Source: Stigmatella erecta (GTDB lineage Bacteria; Myxococcota; Myxococcia; Myxococcales; Myxococcaceae). From it: a stretch of 64,000 bases of DNA. Under the pieces are notes generated by a model, which did not search any database, had not been told where the DNA came from, and worked only from the letters and a program-made list of their open reading frames with translations. The translations under genes were made by a program, and so were the position numbers. Location: the NCBI RefSeq assembly GCF_900111745.1, contig NZ_FOIJ01000014.1:1-64000 (forward strand), in the 5' to 3' direction. This document shows positions 1 through 62,066 of the stretch, piece by piece; positions within the stretch are counted from its first letter, which is position 1, and each line of letters begins with the position of its first letter.

Positions 1-285
1 GCCAGCGCTCTTGCTCACTACCACCGGCACAAGCTCTTGCTTGGGCCCGGGCCCCTTGGCTCGTCGATGCGCTGCGCGCTCCCCCTTCTTCCAGGCATAC
101 AACGTTGGCTCCGACACCCCCAGGCTCTTGGCCGCCTGGCTCATCGTCCCTCCTGTCCCCACCGTATGCTCCACGTAGCGCACCGCGAAGGCTCGCAGCG
201 CCTCGGGGTAGGGCAATGCTCCTTTCTTTCTCCCGGCCTTCAATCGCTCTACTTCCTGCCGGAACTGCTCCAACTCCTTCTCCAT
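1..285 (-). CDS. IS66-type TnpA-like helix-turn-helix protein (runs off the window)
   Basis: Reading leftward from an ATG at 285, 95 codons stay open to the window edge, so the 3' end is missing. The product starts MEKELEQFRQEVERLKAGRK, continues with a segment of the type PEALRAFAVRYVEHT, then a helix-turn-helix pattern (SQAAKSLGVSEPTLYAWKK), and ends at the edge with a PGPKQELVPVVV-like stretch. This order (HTH, then a short linker with an LVPV motif) is what I know from the small accessory TnpA proteins of IS66-type elements. A putative GGAGGA ribosome binding site lies just upstream of the start. A truncated second copy follows at 357-512. The family assignment rests on motif memory only; the rest of the element would lie to the left. 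Confidence 0.6.
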   Translation of the reverse strand, partial: MEKELEQFRQEVERLKAGRKKGALPYPEALRAFAVRYVEHTVGTGGTMSQAAKSLGVSEPTLYAWKKGERAAHRRAKGPGPKQELVPVVVSKSAG

Positions 286-333
286 CGGCTCCTCCTTGTG
301 GGGAACTCGGCAGGTCTCACACTCGGCGCCTCT

Positions 334-356
334 CCGTCACGACGGGGCACGGCGAG
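334..356 (-). repeat. Putative insertion-sequence end, copy 1 of a 23-bp direct repeat
   Basis: The 23 bp beginning CCGTCACGACGGGGCACGGC occur here and again, identically, at 562-584. Each copy lies 45-50 bp upstream of a tnpA start (285 and 512), and the DNA between repeat and start is also similar in both copies. Sequence outside the repeat differs completely. That is what the outer end of an insertion sequence looks like when two copies are present. The matching other end is not in the window. Confidence 0.55.
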
Positions 357-512
357 CTGATACCTTCTTCCTCCAGCCGCCACGGTGTGCTCGGCGTAGC
401 GCACCGCGAAGGCGCGCAGTGCCTCGGGGAACGGCAACGAGCCACTGCGCCGTCCAGCCTTCAGCCGCTGCGCCTCTTGACGGAACTGCTCCAATTCCTT
501 CTCCAACTCCAC
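357..512 (-). pseudogene. Truncated second copy of the IS66-type tnpA
   Basis: From a GTG at 512 the frame reads VELEKELEQFRQEAQRLKAG and then PFPEALRAFAVRYAEHTVAAGG, closely matching the first half of the gene at 1-285. The similarity stops near 357-366, exactly where the 23-bp end repeat of copy 1 begins, and the helix-turn-helix half is absent. The simplest reading is that IS copy 1 inserted into the tnpA of copy 2. The differences between the two copies show they are diverged relatives and not a fresh duplication. Confidence 0.6.
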
Positions 513-561
513 GGACCACCTCCTGGTGTGTGGCCTCAGGTGGTCTCACGAGATGGGGAAC

Positions 562-584
562 CCGTCACGACGGGGCACGGCGAG
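562..584 (-). repeat. Putative insertion-sequence end, copy 2 of the 23-bp direct repeat
   Basis: Identical to the 23 bp at 334-356. It sits at the junction between the upstream region of tnpA copy 2 (start at 512) and the broken IS3-type transposase that begins at about 585, which implies that IS copy 2 landed inside the IS3 element. Confidence 0.55.
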
Positions 585-783
585 GTCTTACGAGAGCTTC
601 TTCAGCAGCTTGAAGCAGGAGCTGGTCTACCGAACTGACTTCGCCACGCGTCAGCAGGCCCGCTTGGCCCTCTTCGAGTACATCGAGGTCTTCTACAATC
701 GGCAGCGGCGGCACTCGACGCTGGGCTACGTCAGCCCGGTGGACTTTGAGAACGCGGCCCTACCTGTTACGTTGGCAGCTTAA
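585..783 (+). pseudogene. IS3-family transposase OrfB, C-terminal fragment
   Basis: The frame ending at the TAA at 781-783 encodes the last ~65 residues of an IS3-type DDE transposase: SFFSSLKQELVYR, then a stretch ending YIEVFYNRQRRHSTLGYVSP. This includes the final catalytic Glu region (SLKxE) and the conserved NxxRRHSxLGYxSP motif. Everything upstream (integrase core with both catalytic Asp residues, and OrfA) is missing and replaced by the end of another element at 562-584. An in-frame ATG at 526 lies in the foreign DNA and is accidental. The fragment is not functional. Confidence 0.85.
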
Positions 784-789
784 GTCCTG

Positions 790-814
790 TGTCCACTAAA
801 TCGGGGCAAGCCCA
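790..814 (+). repeat. Right terminal inverted repeat of the IS3-type element
   Basis: Seven bases after the transposase stop, TGTCCACTAAATCGGGGCAA and the following five bases resemble the common IS3-family terminal repeat (a TGTCCACT-type tip followed by a CGGGG stretch). The left partner is missing because the 5' part of the element is gone. This marks where unrelated sequence resumes. Confidence 0.5.
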
Positions 815-815
815 G

Positions 816-905
816 TGGACGCATGATCAGCGCATCGAGTACCACTCTCGGGAGCTGCACATGGCCGAGAGCGAGAAGGAGATCGCTTCACGCCGAGAGG
901 GCTGA
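816..905 (+). pseudogene. 3' remnant of an unidentified gene cut by the IS3 element
   Basis: Directly after the IS3 terminal repeat an open frame of 29 codons runs to a TGA at 903-905. It reads like an ordinary hydrophilic C-terminus (RIEYHSRELHMAESEKEIAS and so on) and is followed 15 bp later by a good intrinsic terminator (921-954). A gene tail plus terminator abutting an IS end suggests the IS removed the rest of the gene. I cannot identify the family, and chance openness is possible at this length. Confidence 0.3.
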
Positions 906-920
906 TCAGCACAAGAAGAG

Positions 921-954
921 GAGCCGGCCGTGGGCACAGGCCTGGCTCTTTTTT
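921..954 (+). terminator. Rho-independent terminator
   Basis: GAGCCGGCC and GGCCTGGCTC form a GC-rich stem around a short loop, followed by a run of six T (949-954). It lies 15 bp after the truncated frame that ends at 905, the only + strand coding remnant it could serve. Confidence 0.6.
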
Positions 955-1244
955 GATTTCATTCTGGTGCGCTTGGCATTGACAGCAAGCTCCCGCACGG
1001 TGCATTAGACCACCCGAGGGCCTGTAGAAACGGGCCGCGGCTTCTCCTGGCGGCAACGGGCCAGGACCCGCGAACTCATCAGCTTGAGGAAGGCCACCAA
1101 GCCGACCTCGGGATACGGCCGTAGTGGACAAAAACGGAGAGGCCACACCCGGCTATATGTCCGGGCTCTCTTCGGCTCCGATAGCTGACCGCACGGCGCA
1201 ACGCCGTTCCTCATCCGGTCAGTGCTTCGTAGGAAGGCGCTGGC

Positions 1245-1709
1245 GTGCCGCAGCGCATCTGTGAAGTCTTGACTCCGAAGCATGACGAGGGGCTCGACCT
1301 CCTACTGGAGATCCGAGAACTCCGGGAGGAACTGCGCACGCTGCGAGCCGATCTCGCGAGCCTGCGAGGTCACATGATCTCGCCGACGCCTGTAGTTGTC
1401 GGCGTAGAAGAAGCGGGACGCCATCTGGGCTGCGGGCGCACGAAGATCTTCGAGTTGCTGAAGTCCGGGATGCTGGAACAGGCCCCCAAGGTCGGTAGGA
1501 GCACCATGGTGACAGTGGCCAGCATCCACGCCTACCAACAAGTCGGCAGCAACGAAACCACGCAGCAGAAGCGACGGCGCAAGCTGAAGGCGAGGGCACC
1601 AGCATCCAAGGCACAGTCCTCGGGGCGTGAGGCTCGCGAGGCCATCCTCAAGCTGGTACGGCCTGCTCGACGGACGCATACGGCGGATCTTCCGGGTGTT
1701 CAAGAGTGA
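1245..1709 (+). CDS. Helix-turn-helix DNA-binding protein, excisionase-like
   Basis: A 154-residue protein starting at GTG 1245, preceded by AGGAAGG at a good distance. Residues ~15-45 look like a coiled coil (LLLEIRELREELRTLRADLA). Residues ~50-100 match the MerR-like HTH_17 fold of excisionases and phage regulators (VVVGVEEAGRHLGCGRTKIF, then a K(V)GR wing). The C-terminus is very basic (QQKRRRKLKARA). It lies tail to tail with the integrase gene and overlaps its 3' end by 62 bp (1648-1709). Position next to an integrase supports a role as directionality factor or element regulator, but that is inference. Confidence 0.6.
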   Translation: MPQRICEVLTPKHDEGLDLLLEIRELREELRTLRADLASLRGHMISPTPVVVGVEEAGRHLGCGRTKIFELLKSGMLEQAPKVGRSTMVTVASIHAYQQVGSNETTQQKRRRKLKARAPASKAQSSGREAREAILKLVRPARRTHTADLPGVQE

Positions 1710-2823
1710 TGGGCACCTTGATCATTGGAGGCACCTTGACGTTCTCGTAGAACTTCTTCGTGGTCGTCACCGACTGGTGCCCCACCACGGCGGCGATGGC
1801 GGCCAGAGGCAAGCCCCCTGATCTCGGGCGTACCTCCTGGCCGCACTCGGAAGCCCAGGTGACGAAGCTGTGGCGCAGTTCGCCGAACCGCACCGGCTCC
1901 ACGCCTGCGGACTTTGCGGCCCGGGAAACCACCTTGCGGATGTAGCTGTCCACCGGAGCTGCCCCCCGAGCCTGGAGTCGCTGCACAGCTGCAAGAGTCT
2001 GGTGGTCGATGCTCTGCACATGGACCCGGCCGCTCTTGTGGACGAACTTGATGGTGGCCGCGATTACTCCGTGCTCCCGTAGGACGGTGACCTTCCCCTC
2101 GCCCCGCGCGAGCCGCTCGATCTCCGTGCTGTGCATCCCCGTCTTGGCGTGAATGCAGAGCACGTCACGTACTGGCTGCACATCTGTCACGCGTCCCGTG
2201 CCCCTCCAGCCGTATTTCGCCGACTCCCAACCGTTAATGGCCCGGTACAAGCGCTGGATCTCCTCGATGGTATAGCCCTTCTCCCGGATGGCCTTCTCGG
2301 GACGCGCGGCGGGAACCTTGAGCGCCAGCGTGCAGTCCTCGGAAACCGGAAGCACGGCCTCGACCTCTCGAAGCCAGGCCGTGTAGGACTTCAGAGCCGT
2401 GATGCGGTTCTTCCGGGCCGTCTTGTGCCGCGCGAGTTCACGCAGCACCTCCTGGAGCGTCAGGCGGCGCAGGTCCCGGCCCACCAGCACCTCCGCCCAT
2501 CCCGCCAGATAGTAGGCGACGTTGCCCACGTAGCGTTCGGTGCGCCCCTGGGCCTTGAGGTACTCCAAGAACCGGCCCACGGTTTCGGGGTCCAGGTACA
2601 CCGCAGCGTCCTTCTGCGTCTGCTGGACCTCCGTCTTGGTCTGGTAGGCCCCGGGATCTCGGAGGAACAGCGCCAGTTCCGCCTCGGCCTCGGTCTCGTT
2701 CCGGGCGTCCAGGGTGATGGCGTAGTTCCGCCCTTGCACCATCTTGCGGAGCACATAGACCGTCCGACCATCGCCAGTCCGGTAGGTCCGGCCACCTTTC
2801 CATTTTCCCGACCACTTCGGCAT
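1648..2823 (-). CDS. Tyrosine recombinase (integrase) of the integrated element
   Basis: A 391-residue protein; the ATG at 2823 is chosen because GGGGAG precedes it at a proper distance. Residues ~75-165 resemble a core-binding SAM-like domain and ~175-365 the catalytic domain. Visible catalytic-type positions are Lys263 (FVHKSGR), Arg317 in GELRHSF, His349 in VVGHQS and Tyr359 in KKFYENV. Two usually invariant residues differ: the first Arg (TGxR) is His231 (AKTGMHSTEIERL), and the His of the HxxR box is Gly314. The gene ends 138 bp from the partial tRNA-Met, the normal place for an integrase beside its attachment site. It could be active with atypical residues or decaying; the frame itself is intact. 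Confidence 0.8.
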   Translation of the reverse strand: MPKWSGKWKGGRTYRTGDGRTVYVLRKMVQGRNYAITLDARNETEAEAELALFLRDPGAYQTKTEVQQTQKDAAVYLDPETVGRFLEYLKAQGRTERYVGNVAYYLAGWAEVLVGRDLRRLTLQEVLRELARHKTARKNRITALKSYTAWLREVEAVLPVSEDCTLALKVPAARPEKAIREKGYTIEEIQRLYRAINGWESAKYGWRGTGRVTDVQPVRDVLCIHAKTGMHSTEIERLARGEGKVTVLREHGVIAATIKFVHKSGRVHVQSIDHQTLAAVQRLQARGAAPVDSYIRKVVSRAAKSAGVEPVRFGELRHSFVTWASECGQEVRPRSGGLPLAAIAAVVGHQSVTTTKKFYENVKVPPMIKVPITLEHPEDPPYASVEQAVPA

Positions 2824-2961
2824 GCAGCACTCCCCAACGTCAGTCCCATTTGGTACCAGTTTGGTACTCCAGGCGCAAGACGCGGTGCCCCGCTCCAACC
2901 CATGGGGCTAAACGCTCATTCCTAAAAGGGAATTCCGGAGGAACAACTGCCGCAGGAAAAC

Positions 2962-3015
2962 TAGAGCGGCGGTCTCATAATCCGCAGGTAGTCGGTTCAA
3001 GTCCGACCCTGGCCA
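2962..3015 (+). pseudogene. 3' fragment of tRNA-Met(CAU): attachment site (attR-like)
   Basis: From TAGAGC in the D-arm onward the sequence matches a bacterial elongator tRNA-Met: anticodon arm 2969-2985 with loop CTCATAA (anticodon CAT at 2976-2978), T-arm 2991-3007 (GTCGG, TTCAAGT, CCGAC), 3' acceptor strand CCTGGCC and discriminator A3015. The 5' acceptor strand (GGCCAGG expected) and most of the D-arm are absent; the DNA left of 2962 belongs to the integrase side. A native-looking terminator follows. This is the usual outcome of integration into a tRNA gene, with the rebuilt whole tRNA expected at the far end of the element, outside the window. Confidence 0.8.
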
Positions 3016-3018
3016 CAG

Positions 3019-3058
3019 GCCCCGTCCCCAGGAGTTCCCGGGGACGGGGCTTTTTTTT
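3019..3058 (+). terminator. Strong terminator of the tRNA-Met transcription unit
   Basis: A perfect 11-bp stem (GCCCCGTCCCC at 3019-3029 and its complement at 3040-3050) with a short loop is followed by eight T (3051-3058). It begins three bases after the tRNA discriminator base, so it originally ended the tRNA gene. Confidence 0.9.
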
Positions 3059-3452: not shown

Positions 3453-3692
3453 ATGCAGGATGGCAACGTCAGCCCACTGAGCTCCGACACCCCTTCGGCC
3501 CCGGTCGAATCGGGGGAAGTCCGCTCCGTCCCAGAGATCGAGGTCGTCTCCACCCACGTCCTCGTCGCCGAAGAACAGGTGCAGAAGCTCCGCGAGCTGT
3601 CCCGGCGCACCCGCATCGCCCAGAGCGAGTACCTGCGCGAGGCGGTGGAGGATCTCCTCGCCAAGTACGGCAAGGCCGGAGGCCAGCCGTAA
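3453..3692 (+). CDS. Ribbon-helix-helix domain protein
   Basis: A 79-residue protein from ATG 3453 with AGGAGG nine bases upstream. The first ~33 residues are flexible (Ser, Pro, Glu rich). Residues ~36-72 fit a MetJ/Arc-type ribbon-helix-helix: a short strand (THVLVAEEQV), helix QKLRELSRRTRIAQ, and helix SEYLREAVEDLLAKY. Such proteins bind DNA as dimers and often act as autoregulated repressors or antitoxins. Its stop codon overlaps the start of the next small gene (TAATG at 3690-3694), implying coupled translation. Target and role are not visible. Confidence 0.7.
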   Translation: MQDGNVSPLSSDTPSAPVESGEVRSVPEIEVVSTHVLVAEEQVQKLRELSRRTRIAQSEYLREAVEDLLAKYGKAGGQP

Positions 3693-3856
3693 TGCCCTCC
3701 TCCCTCACCCAGGCCGCCACGCGCACCCGCGAGGTTCTCCCCACGCCCCTCGCCCGGGAGCTGGAAGGCCTGCTCGGCCCTCACGCCCGGCCGCCGGCTG
3801 GACGGCCTCCCACCATCAAGGACGCCATCATCCGCTGGCTCAACGAGGAGCTGTAA
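3692..3856 (+). CDS. 54-residue protein coupled to the ribbon-helix-helix gene
   Basis: The ATG at 3692 shares its A with the stop codon of the preceding gene. The product has an N-terminal stretch rich in Thr, Arg and Leu, a Pro-rich middle (PHARPPAGRPPT) and a helical, amphipathic end (IKDAIIRWLNEEL). It ends 20 bp before the convergent flippase-like gene. The TAATG overlap with a plausible partner is the main support; no family is recognised. It could be a partner of the DNA-binding protein (toxin, or a second small DNA-binding subunit), but nothing in the sequence decides this. Confidence 0.45.
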   Translation: MPSSLTQAATRTREVLPTPLARELEGLLGPHARPPAGRPPTIKDAIIRWLNEEL

Positions 3857-3875
3857 GCCCAGCGCCCCTCCGGCC

Positions 3876-4943
3876 TCAGGCCGTGGGGGCCGACGCTTCA
3901 TCCCCCTCGCCCTTGTCCATCTTCGTGGCGATGTCCCGGAAGGACAGGTGCCCCAGCGACAGCAGCAGCAGGCCGAAGCCCACCTGTTGCACCGTCTGGC
4001 ACAGCCACGTCACGTTCGCGTAGGCCAGGCCGCTGGAGTTCACCACCGAGGCCGGCAGGAAGAGGCTCATGCCCACCGTCGTCGCCGCCTGGAACGTCCC
4101 CATCATCCCCGGCGCCGCGGGAATCATCAGCCCCACCACCAGCACCGTCATCACCACGTAGCCCTGGAACAGCGTCAGCGTCATGGGCTGGCACGACGCA
4201 TCCAACGTGCCCGCGCAGCTGAAGGCCCGGGACAGCAGCGCCATGCCCGCCCCGTTCAGGCCCCAGTAGGCGAAGGTGTAGAGAAAGAAGCCGGTGAGCT
4301 GCTTCGCCTTGGGCAACTGCCCCATCGCCCCGACGAAGCCATCCACCACGTCGGCCATCTTGTCCGCCAGCGCCGGGACGAACCGCCCCACCGTGATGCG
4401 CACCAGGTGCACCGCGCGGTCGTGCTGCCAGCGCGCGAAGAGCAGGAACAGCAGCCCGCTGCCGAAGAAGGCGAACATCAGCGTGGAGCCCAGCTTCACG
4501 TAGCGGACTTCCGGCGTCTCCGTGGGGATGAAGAAGAGCAGCACGCGCAGGAGCGTGGCCACGAAGATCCCGTCGGTGATGCGCTCGAGCACCACCGAGG
4601 TCATCGCCGCGCTGCTGCGGATGGAGCTGCGCTGGGCGATGAGGTACGGCCGGGCGAACTCTCCCAGCCGGAACGGCATCACCAGCAGCATCATGAAGCC
4701 AATGCCCGAGGCCTGGTTGAGCGGGCGGAACGGCACCCGCTCGATCCCCGACAGCAGGCACCCCCACCGCAACGTCCGGAAGACGTGGATGAGGGTCAGG
4801 ATGCCGAAGTACGGCAGGACATAAAGGTAGTTCGCCGAGCGGAGGCTGGCCCACTGCGATCGCCAGTCCGTGTTTCGGAACGCCCACCACGAGATCAGGA
4901 GGGTGACCAGCACGCTGGCCACGAGCTTGACGGCACGCTTCAC
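3876..4943 (-). CDS. Flippase-like integral membrane protein (LPG synthase TM / UPF0104 family)
   Basis: A 355-residue protein with a short basic N-terminus and about seven to eight hydrophobic segments. Early motifs such as HVFRTLRWGCLL and MLLVMPFRLGEFARPYLIA are typical of the lysylphosphatidylglycerol-synthase membrane-domain family (YbhN/AglD-like), whose members are thought to move or build lipid-linked molecules. The basic/acidic tail (KMDKGEGDEASAPTA) is likely cytoplasmic. It starts 16 bp after the PHP phosphatase gene and is on the same strand, so the two are probably cotranscribed; that pairing hints at envelope polysaccharide or lipid work. The substrate cannot be read from sequence. 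Confidence 0.8.
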   Translation of the reverse strand: MKRAVKLVASVLVTLLISWWAFRNTDWRSQWASLRSANYLYVLPYFGILTLIHVFRTLRWGCLLSGIERVPFRPLNQASGIGFMMLLVMPFRLGEFARPYLIAQRSSIRSSAAMTSVVLERITDGIFVATLLRVLLFFIPTETPEVRYVKLGSTLMFAFFGSGLLFLLFARWQHDRAVHLVRITVGRFVPALADKMADVVDGFVGAMGQLPKAKQLTGFFLYTFAYWGLNGAGMALLSRAFSCAGTLDASCQPMTLTLFQGYVVMTVLVVGLMIPAAPGMMGTFQAATTVGMSLFLPASVVNSSGLAYANVTWLCQTVQQVGFGLLLLSLGHLSFRDIATKMDKGEGDEASAPTA

Positions 4944-61967: not shown

Positions 61968-62066
61968 GGTAGGGCCTCCGGATCTGGTGGCCGGCCCGGT
62001 CTTCAAAACCGGTGAGGGGCCGTGAGAACGGTCCCTGGTGAGTTCGATTCTCATGCCCTACCGCCA
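61968..62066 (+). tRNA. selC: tRNA-Sec (selenocysteine, anticodon UCA)
   Basis: A 99-base gene with CCA encoded (62064-62066). The acceptor strands are GGTAGGGC and GCCCTACC (8 bp, longer than the usual 7). The anticodon loop is CTTCAAA with TCA at 62003-62005. A long variable arm (about 62013-62035) and T-arm (GTTCGATTC loop) follow. These are the specific features of selC. It implies that the organism makes selenoproteins, although no selA, selB or selD lies here. Its 3' end abuts accessory DNA with toxin genes. Confidence 0.95.

Follow-up and report, generated by a model that had tools for sequence, protein, structure and literature searches.

The locus analysed here raises the question how the 3' part of a tRNA-Met gene came to stand alone beside an integrase gene, and where the rest of that gene is to be found. 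The window, i.e. the whole analysed stretch of 64,000 nucleotides (G000:C14:1-64000), starts at base 1 of contig C14 of the Stigmatella erecta genome (G000), and the other end of the element must therefore lie on another contig. We consider it very probable that window positions 1-2961 represent the integrase end of an element that was put by a lambda-like tyrosine integrase into the anticodon loop of the only elongator tRNA-Met gene of this genome. The relevant features are, in window coordinates:

1-783: transposase remnants (HTH_Tnp_1 at 1-285, minus; rve_2 at 526-783, plus) where the contig breaks
1245-1709, plus: HTH protein, candidate excisionase (PHROG_66 excisionase, E 5.6e-4), convergent with the integrase gene
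1651-2823, minus: integrase of 391 aa with a predicted lambda-Int-like three-domain fold; stop codon at 1648-1650
2849-2867, plus: two TTTGGTAC direct repeats 11 bp apart, probable arm-binding sites, just upstream of the integrase gene
2962-3016, plus: attR, the orphan 3' part of tRNA-Met(CAU), lacking the 5' half
2962-3024, plus: exact 63-bp direct repeat, common to the rebuilt tRNA on contig C1
3018-3058, plus: original tRNA terminator of the host (alignment to the empty sites of G003-G005; fold)
3453-4943: host right flank with an RHH protein gene (3453-3692, plus) and an LPG_synthase_TM gene (3876-4943, minus), found behind the intact tRNA in G003-G005

Orphan fragment, rebuilt gene and empty site

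Window positions 2962-3016 are 100% identical to nucleotides 21-75 of tRNA-Met(CAU) (compared through locus L026; tRNA positions are counted along the 75-nt gene, in which the anticodon is 35-37), and ARAGORN finds no complete tRNA at this fragment. Behind it follow a strong hairpin and then T residues, with a fold of -30.6 kcal/mol that was as stable in 0 of 200 shuffles. The open reading frame to the left (1648-2898) matches integrase profiles, namely PHROG_1 (E 3e-18, residues 13-357) and Pfam PF00589 (E 6.7e-5, below the curated cut-off). The original prediction had claimed that only the 3' part of tRNA-Met(CAU) is present, that a strong terminator succeeds it and that an integrase lies to its left, and it is confirmed on these points.

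A complete tRNA-Met was located at C1:27112-27186 (minus) by a whole-genome search and by ARAGORN. The prediction had placed the rebuilt tRNA and the left end of the element outside the window, where both are indeed found, on contig C1. It had named the lack of a second fragment copy as the outcome that would speak against it; such a copy exists, exact over 63 bp, inside the complete tRNA-Met (G000:C1:27104-27166, minus). The end of the shared block comprises the first bases of the terminator stem, past the end of the tRNA gene. Three congeners (G003, G004 and G005; loci L007, L008 and L009) have an empty site, in which the right flank of the window, an intact tRNA-Met and the 5' flank of C1 follow each other contiguously. 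Identity to the window right flank over 2 kb amounts to 95%, 88% and 89%, respectively. About 150 bp of DNA upstream of the rebuilt C1 tRNA are found beyond the intact tRNA in all three genomes, and in G005 host DNA 8-10 kb further along C1 is likewise in place. The flanks of C1 and of the window thus bracket the intact tRNA, and the reading of the 2962 edge as an attachment site whose left side belongs to the element is supported as well. It follows from the empty sites that the host side of C1 lies to the right of 27186 and that the insert extends from C1:27111 downwards and up to window position 2961.

The terminator behind the rebuilt C1 tRNA differs in sequence from that of the window; its type is also present behind the tRNA in other genera (G013, G017, G020, G043) and in G002. 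A window terminator brought by the element was considered and rejected, as it is of the same type as those at the empty sites of the congeners. Since the window terminator is of the host type and the C1 terminator is different, the rebuilt gene consists of the 5' flank and 5' half of the host and the 3' half and terminator of the element. The integrase gene is located at the fragment end, away from the rebuilt intact tRNA. Among the 47 tRNA genes of the genome, four have the anticodon CAU, of which we take two to be initiator-type and one to be Ile2-like from sequence features, the fourth being the target gene. Because the other three look like initiator or Ile2 genes, the insertion appears to have hit the sole elongator tRNA-Met gene of the genome, and with a single elongator-type gene the rebuilt copy is necessary.

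Within 104 kb (window plus C1:1-40000) TTTGGTAC occurs three times, at window positions 2849 and 2860 and at C1:27021 (minus), the third copy being ~85 bp inside the C1 end of the element. By base composition 0.7 copies are expected in 104 kb, and the chance of finding one in a 250-bp end is 0.0017. Both ends look like those of one element because the sole third copy sits inside the C1 end, and we infer that these sites are the arm-type sites of the integrase. In the congener G002, two TTTGGTAC sites 11 bp apart are found at the matching place; their contig aligns with C1:19740-27111 over 7.4 kb at 92% identity. G002 has the 3' part of the tRNA twice (97% each): one copy joins the left part of the element and the other the right flank of the host, and in either case the contig breaks off inside the tRNA. 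With the tRNA/fragment configuration in the right arrangement, an empty site in relatives and an integrase gene inside the element, the window tRNA-Met locus has the features of a tDNA genomic island with an intact tRNA at one end, a fragment at the other, and its ends on two contigs.

The assembly represents the element by two contig ends (C1:1-27111 and C14:1-2961) with the interior unassembled; the ends share an 85% repeat in an orientation that is wrong for an overlap. Transposase remnants, which we take to be IS3-type at window positions 1-783, lie near both contig ends, and their presence beside the integrase gene suggests decay of the element. A simple composition script called 18 genes in C1:1-27111, of which 15 and one further ORF were scanned. 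Pfam matches comprise transposase pieces, a patatin-like protein, two RoxA-like cytochromes, an FMN oxidoreductase, a YhhN protein, a 1831-aa kinase/AAA/GAF/HATPase protein and a 1376-aa CHAT-domain protein. Neither a relaxase nor conjugation or phage structural genes were identified among these 16 proteins of an element known from two contig ends, and because no relaxase or phage structural gene was seen we refrain from classing it as an ICE or a prophage. In G002, C1:20001-27111 is found again at the tRNA site. Relatives of the segment C1:7982-13796 (78-80% identity) are present in G001 and G003, where they and the tRNA-Met lie on different contigs, and part of C1 may for this reason fall outside the element. 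The CHAT-domain protein and two neighbours without Pfam match (L005:431-6296, C1:20431-26296) form a gene group that is also found in G002 at the same tRNA site and is possibly defence cargo. The HTH protein of the window matches PHROG_57 terminase small subunit (E 0.0012) in addition to PHROG_66, and HTH_17 (E 0.0018) and TIGR01764 excise (E 0.01) below the cut-off; the element of G043 has an HTH_17 protein (E 8e-10) that is likewise convergent with its integrase gene.

An integrase group with histidine in place of Arg I

The reading frame of the integrase is intact and free of stops. A structure model (AF2, alignment-based, 22 sequences; pLDDT 80.6, pTM 0.49) has the three-domain fold of tyrosine recombinases of the lambda Int type, and for the N-terminal part it predicts a small beta-sheet with a helix behind it. 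Foldseek returned lambda integrase as best match (E 3e-8). A comparison of both by VIA gave Z 12.4 and an rmsd of 17.2 over 289 residues, the large rmsd probably being due to domain movement; the integrase of phage Brujita aligns at 3.9 A over 245 residues (Z 12.1).

Arg I has a catalytic role in tyrosine recombinases. At its place the window integrase has His231 (AKTGMH), and the canonical integrases of the same genome have TGLR; hhalign to these aligns TGMH on TGLR. One alignment has the histidine at the Arg I position in all of its rows (30 of 30), and so does another (25 of 25 rows) that includes relatives near 30% identity. In the HxxR motif Gly replaces His, and this His is absent from all 25 rows, so that the enzyme has neither the catalytic Arg I nor the HxxR His of the lambda Int type. 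Lys263, Arg317 (Arg II), His349 (His III) and Tyr359 are invariant in alignments of 16 and 22 rows. Two further scans for relatives used the His motif (AKTGMH) as search pattern; since the pattern contained the motif, their rows are no independent support for the histidine. Lambda integrase (PDB 1z1g, 1z1b) shares the arm-binding, core-binding and catalytic domains with the window integrase, but differs from it by an identity of only 14% and by having Arg I and the HxxR His where the latter has His and Gly.

Relatives of the integrase are present in 41 of the 96 Myxococcaceae genomes searched (group loci L027-L055 and L142-L158). No match at E 1e-5 was obtained among 50,697 phage records or 72,556 plasmid records, and PDB sequences gave weak matches only (best E 0.0027, profile); the motif-pattern scan found five relatives of 41-46% identity on IMG/VR contigs. 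In a tree of 34 rows the window integrase and 10 enzymes whose loci have a T-arm-like core are sister groups (support 100/100), and these 11 join four enzymes of the 5'-half elements described below (support 83/83); the enzyme of G016 forms a long branch. The tree was calculated without the rows L031, L041 and L048, kept 6 of 17 more distant rows, and carries a long-branch warning that includes G016.

The 11 closest integrases (L027-L037; 67-71% identity) are preceded, ~140 bp upstream of their genes, by an inverted repeat core that resembles a T-arm and consists of variants of GGCGGG-AATCGAA-CCCGCC with unrelated DNA beyond. That these enzymes also use tRNA-Met was rejected, as the core there is T-arm-like and ARAGORN finds no tRNA in those loci. 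In L052 and L053 (G087, G082), a 3' fragment of tRNA-Glu(TTC), beginning at position 30-32, and an integrase of 42-45% identity are ~80 bp apart, which is the layout of the window at another tRNA. L043, L044 and L046 have a complete tRNA-Sec (ARAGORN) ~110 bp from integrases that are 45% identical; the tRNA-Sec of the window itself is at 61968-62066.

The same tRNA site in other Myxococcaceae

The census of the tRNA-Met site covered 96 genomes of the family, 92 of them with a match, plus the junction sequences. In G043, G065, G077 and G088, the distance from a complete tRNA-Met to the start of the integrase upstream (62-64% identical to that of the window) is 106 bp, and a 5' fragment of the gene (positions 1-42) is found elsewhere: 11.1 kb away at the far end in the single-contig genome G043, and on other contigs in the drafts G065, G077 and G088. 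The orphan 5' fragment of G043 has the upstream sequence of the intact gene in its congener G041, and the upstream sequence of the complete G043 gene runs into the integrase gene. Judged from these junctions, the four elements give the tRNA a 5' half and a new upstream region, which presumably includes a promoter.

A third arrangement is present in the MAG G016, where an integrase of 51% identity lies ~440 bp from the tRNA-Met junction and the gene is split (L085 and L101). The 5' part (positions 1-41) is at C53:166615-166661 and the 3' part (from position 33) at C53:156123-156165, 10.4 kb apart on one contig, and the ends share only CTCATAATC, a 9-bp core at positions 33-41. The element carries a complete tRNA-Met(CAU) of 73% similarity ~95 bp inside, and none of the other tRNAs among 54 distinct sequences in 30 loci is an elongator-like CAU tRNA; in this survey 5 of 55 Rfam hits fall outside the 30 loci, and the isotype was judged from the anticodon arm. 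Apart from the cargo tRNA, the CAU tRNAs of G016 comprise an initiator type, an Ile2-like tRNA and an unusual one that belongs to a tRNA array on contig C72. Because the block of the window starts at position 21, that of the 5'-half elements ends at 42 and the ends in G016 share only 33-41, the crossover would be placed between gene positions 33 and 41, in the anticodon loop, which is common to all three modes.

The 5' flank of the tRNA appears to have a history of its own. In G000 and three congeners it aligns with the start of an integrase gene of the 5'-half kind, with 87% identity over 69 bp (E 1e-16) for C1 and G004, 91% over 45 bp in G003 and 80% over 255 bp in G005, where protein similarity reaches residue 235. 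A similar integrase remnant is found in G017, which belongs to another genus. The G000 flank has no match in the loci of G001 and G006, and the contig of G002 does not reach the flank; a genus-wide relic is therefore not supported, the relic being present in four of seven genomes of the genus. An ancestor of these four genomes seems to have received such a 5'-half element, which provided the tRNA with an upstream region and decayed, and the window element would have come later.

Mode of insertion and relation to known systems

We propose the following course of events for the window. The element would have carried a copy of tRNA nucleotides 21-75 and its own terminator. The crossover would have joined the 5' flank and 5' half of the host to the 3' half and terminator of the element, yielding the complete gene on C1, and the host's own 3' half and terminator would have been left as an orphan fragment beside the integrase gene. 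The window integrase was presumably the actor of the insertion, and excision may occur by reversal with the HTH protein as helper.

That the 63-bp repeat merely reflects a chance or paralogous tRNA similarity and that the fragment is a pseudogene deserves practically no credence: fragments of tRNA genes are common in genomes, but the exact repeat runs past the gene end and the empty site in three congeners refutes this reading. It is improbable, too, that another integrase made the insertion and that the one beside the fragment was carried along as a passenger or is a dead relative of repressor-like kind. Such a role would agree with the missing Arg I and HxxR His and with the phage regulators of tyrosine recombinase fold (SPbeta MrpR, YopR and phi3T SroF) among the fold matches, and G002 has the same left part of the element in an assembly in which a close relative of the window integrase was not found (best 34%). 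However, Tyr359, Arg317, His349 and Lys263 are invariant, and the relatives directly adjoin a recombined tRNA-Met junction in the four 5'-half genomes and, at the larger distance given above, in G016.

Somewhat more weight, though still a minor one, is due to the possibility that the element is dead and that its ends were parted later by rearrangement between insertion sequences, so that C1:1-27111 and C14:1-2961 no longer form one segment. The transposase remnants near both contig ends and the relatives of C1:7982-13796 away from the tRNA in G001 and G003 are consistent with this, as is the C1 cargo, which in part resembles ordinary myxobacterial genes. The intact integrase frame, the arm-like sites at both ends and the host synteny that holds on both outer flanks argue against it. 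Such a fate would alter the present state of the element but not its origin; the split, the rebuilt gene, the empty site and the arm-like sites common to both ends are seen directly in the sequences. We maintain integration into the tRNA-Met anticodon loop as the preferred reading.

Taken by itself, the window finding is a further island in a tRNA gene, which is a familiar kind; what its surroundings add is both polarities and the replacement mode, the relic flank and the absence of Arg I. The Islander compilation, in the part that concerns fragment polarity, lists 3760 tDNA islands with 3' fragments versus 159 with 5' fragments (PMC4383910). Compared with the islands outlined there, the window element agrees in having a tyrosine integrase and in that a rebuilt tRNA and a displaced fragment mark the ends, but it adds a new terminator and has its integrase gene at the fragment end, and integrases 62-64% identical to its own use the rarer 5' polarity at the same tRNA (PMC4383910). 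The arrangement in G016, with its short 9-bp core, split host tRNA and cargo tRNA of the same anticodon and isotype, recalls the tRNA-dependent lysogeny outlined by Guerrero-Bustamante and Hatfull (2024, PMC10865867); the likeness refers to the tRNA layout and implies nothing about a phage nature. Relative to that outline G016 differs in being a myxobacterial MAG whose integrase belongs to the same group as those of tRNA-rebuilding elements, and the window element itself is not of this mode. The same paper already names prophage Lj965 as a likely case outside Actinobacteria and states that it is not clear how tRNA-dependent lysogeny and canonical tRNA rebuilding are related in evolution (PMC10865867). 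The pTN3-like archaeal integrases, as sketched in a FEMS review (PMC8371274), also carry the 5' half of the tRNA, with the gene driven from the element side as in G043, G065, G077 and G088, but they are archaeal; a similar situation is, in the wording of that part of the review, seldom encountered in bacteria. A literature search at the level of titles and the beginnings of abstracts returned no paper that deals with these elements, with several rescue modes inside a single integrase group or with integrases that lack Arg I.

Taken further, the data would fit a more general picture, on which our own opinion is evenly divided: one myxobacterial integrase group, active without Arg I, would have made repeated insertions into the anticodon loop of the one elongator tRNA-Met gene, sparing its hosts in all three ways, by a 3' half (window), by a 5' half with promoter (G043, G065, G077 and G088) and by a whole spare tRNA (G016), and in G000 and three congeners this essential gene would run from a region of a decayed element of the 5' kind. 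As 3' rebuilding, 5' rebuilding and replacement are carried out by related integrases at one crossover site within one family, the switches between them can be studied by phylogeny and experiment. The apparent group-wide loss of Arg I would be a test of how far this residue is needed, and an essential tRNA gene with the integrase end of a dead element as its 5' flank is a concrete lasting effect of such insertions.

Several loci show further arrangements of the tRNA-Met gene. In G041 (L113:1400-6317, G041:C14) a complete gene has kept its native terminator, and 4.8 kb below it lies a 3' fragment with a third terminator type; an integrase of this group was not found at the locus, which does not fit the plain 3'-half model. 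In G094 (L114:3315-7100, G094:C17) a 5' fragment and a complete gene 3.6 kb apart have an identical 69-bp stretch that includes 27 bp upstream; beyond the fragment follows the left end sequence of the 5'-half elements. The genome of G094 yielded no integrase of this group, and the same upstream sequence on both tRNA copies makes it a poor fit to the 5'-half model. In G001, G006, G013, G014, G017 and G020 the complete tRNA is followed by 6-26 kb before the right-flank genes, with no second tRNA fragment near it. The contig of G073 breaks inside the tRNA, as in G002. The tRNA array of the MAG (G016:C72:160482-164285) comprises 15 Rfam tRNA hits within 3.8 kb and is possibly phage- or element-borne.
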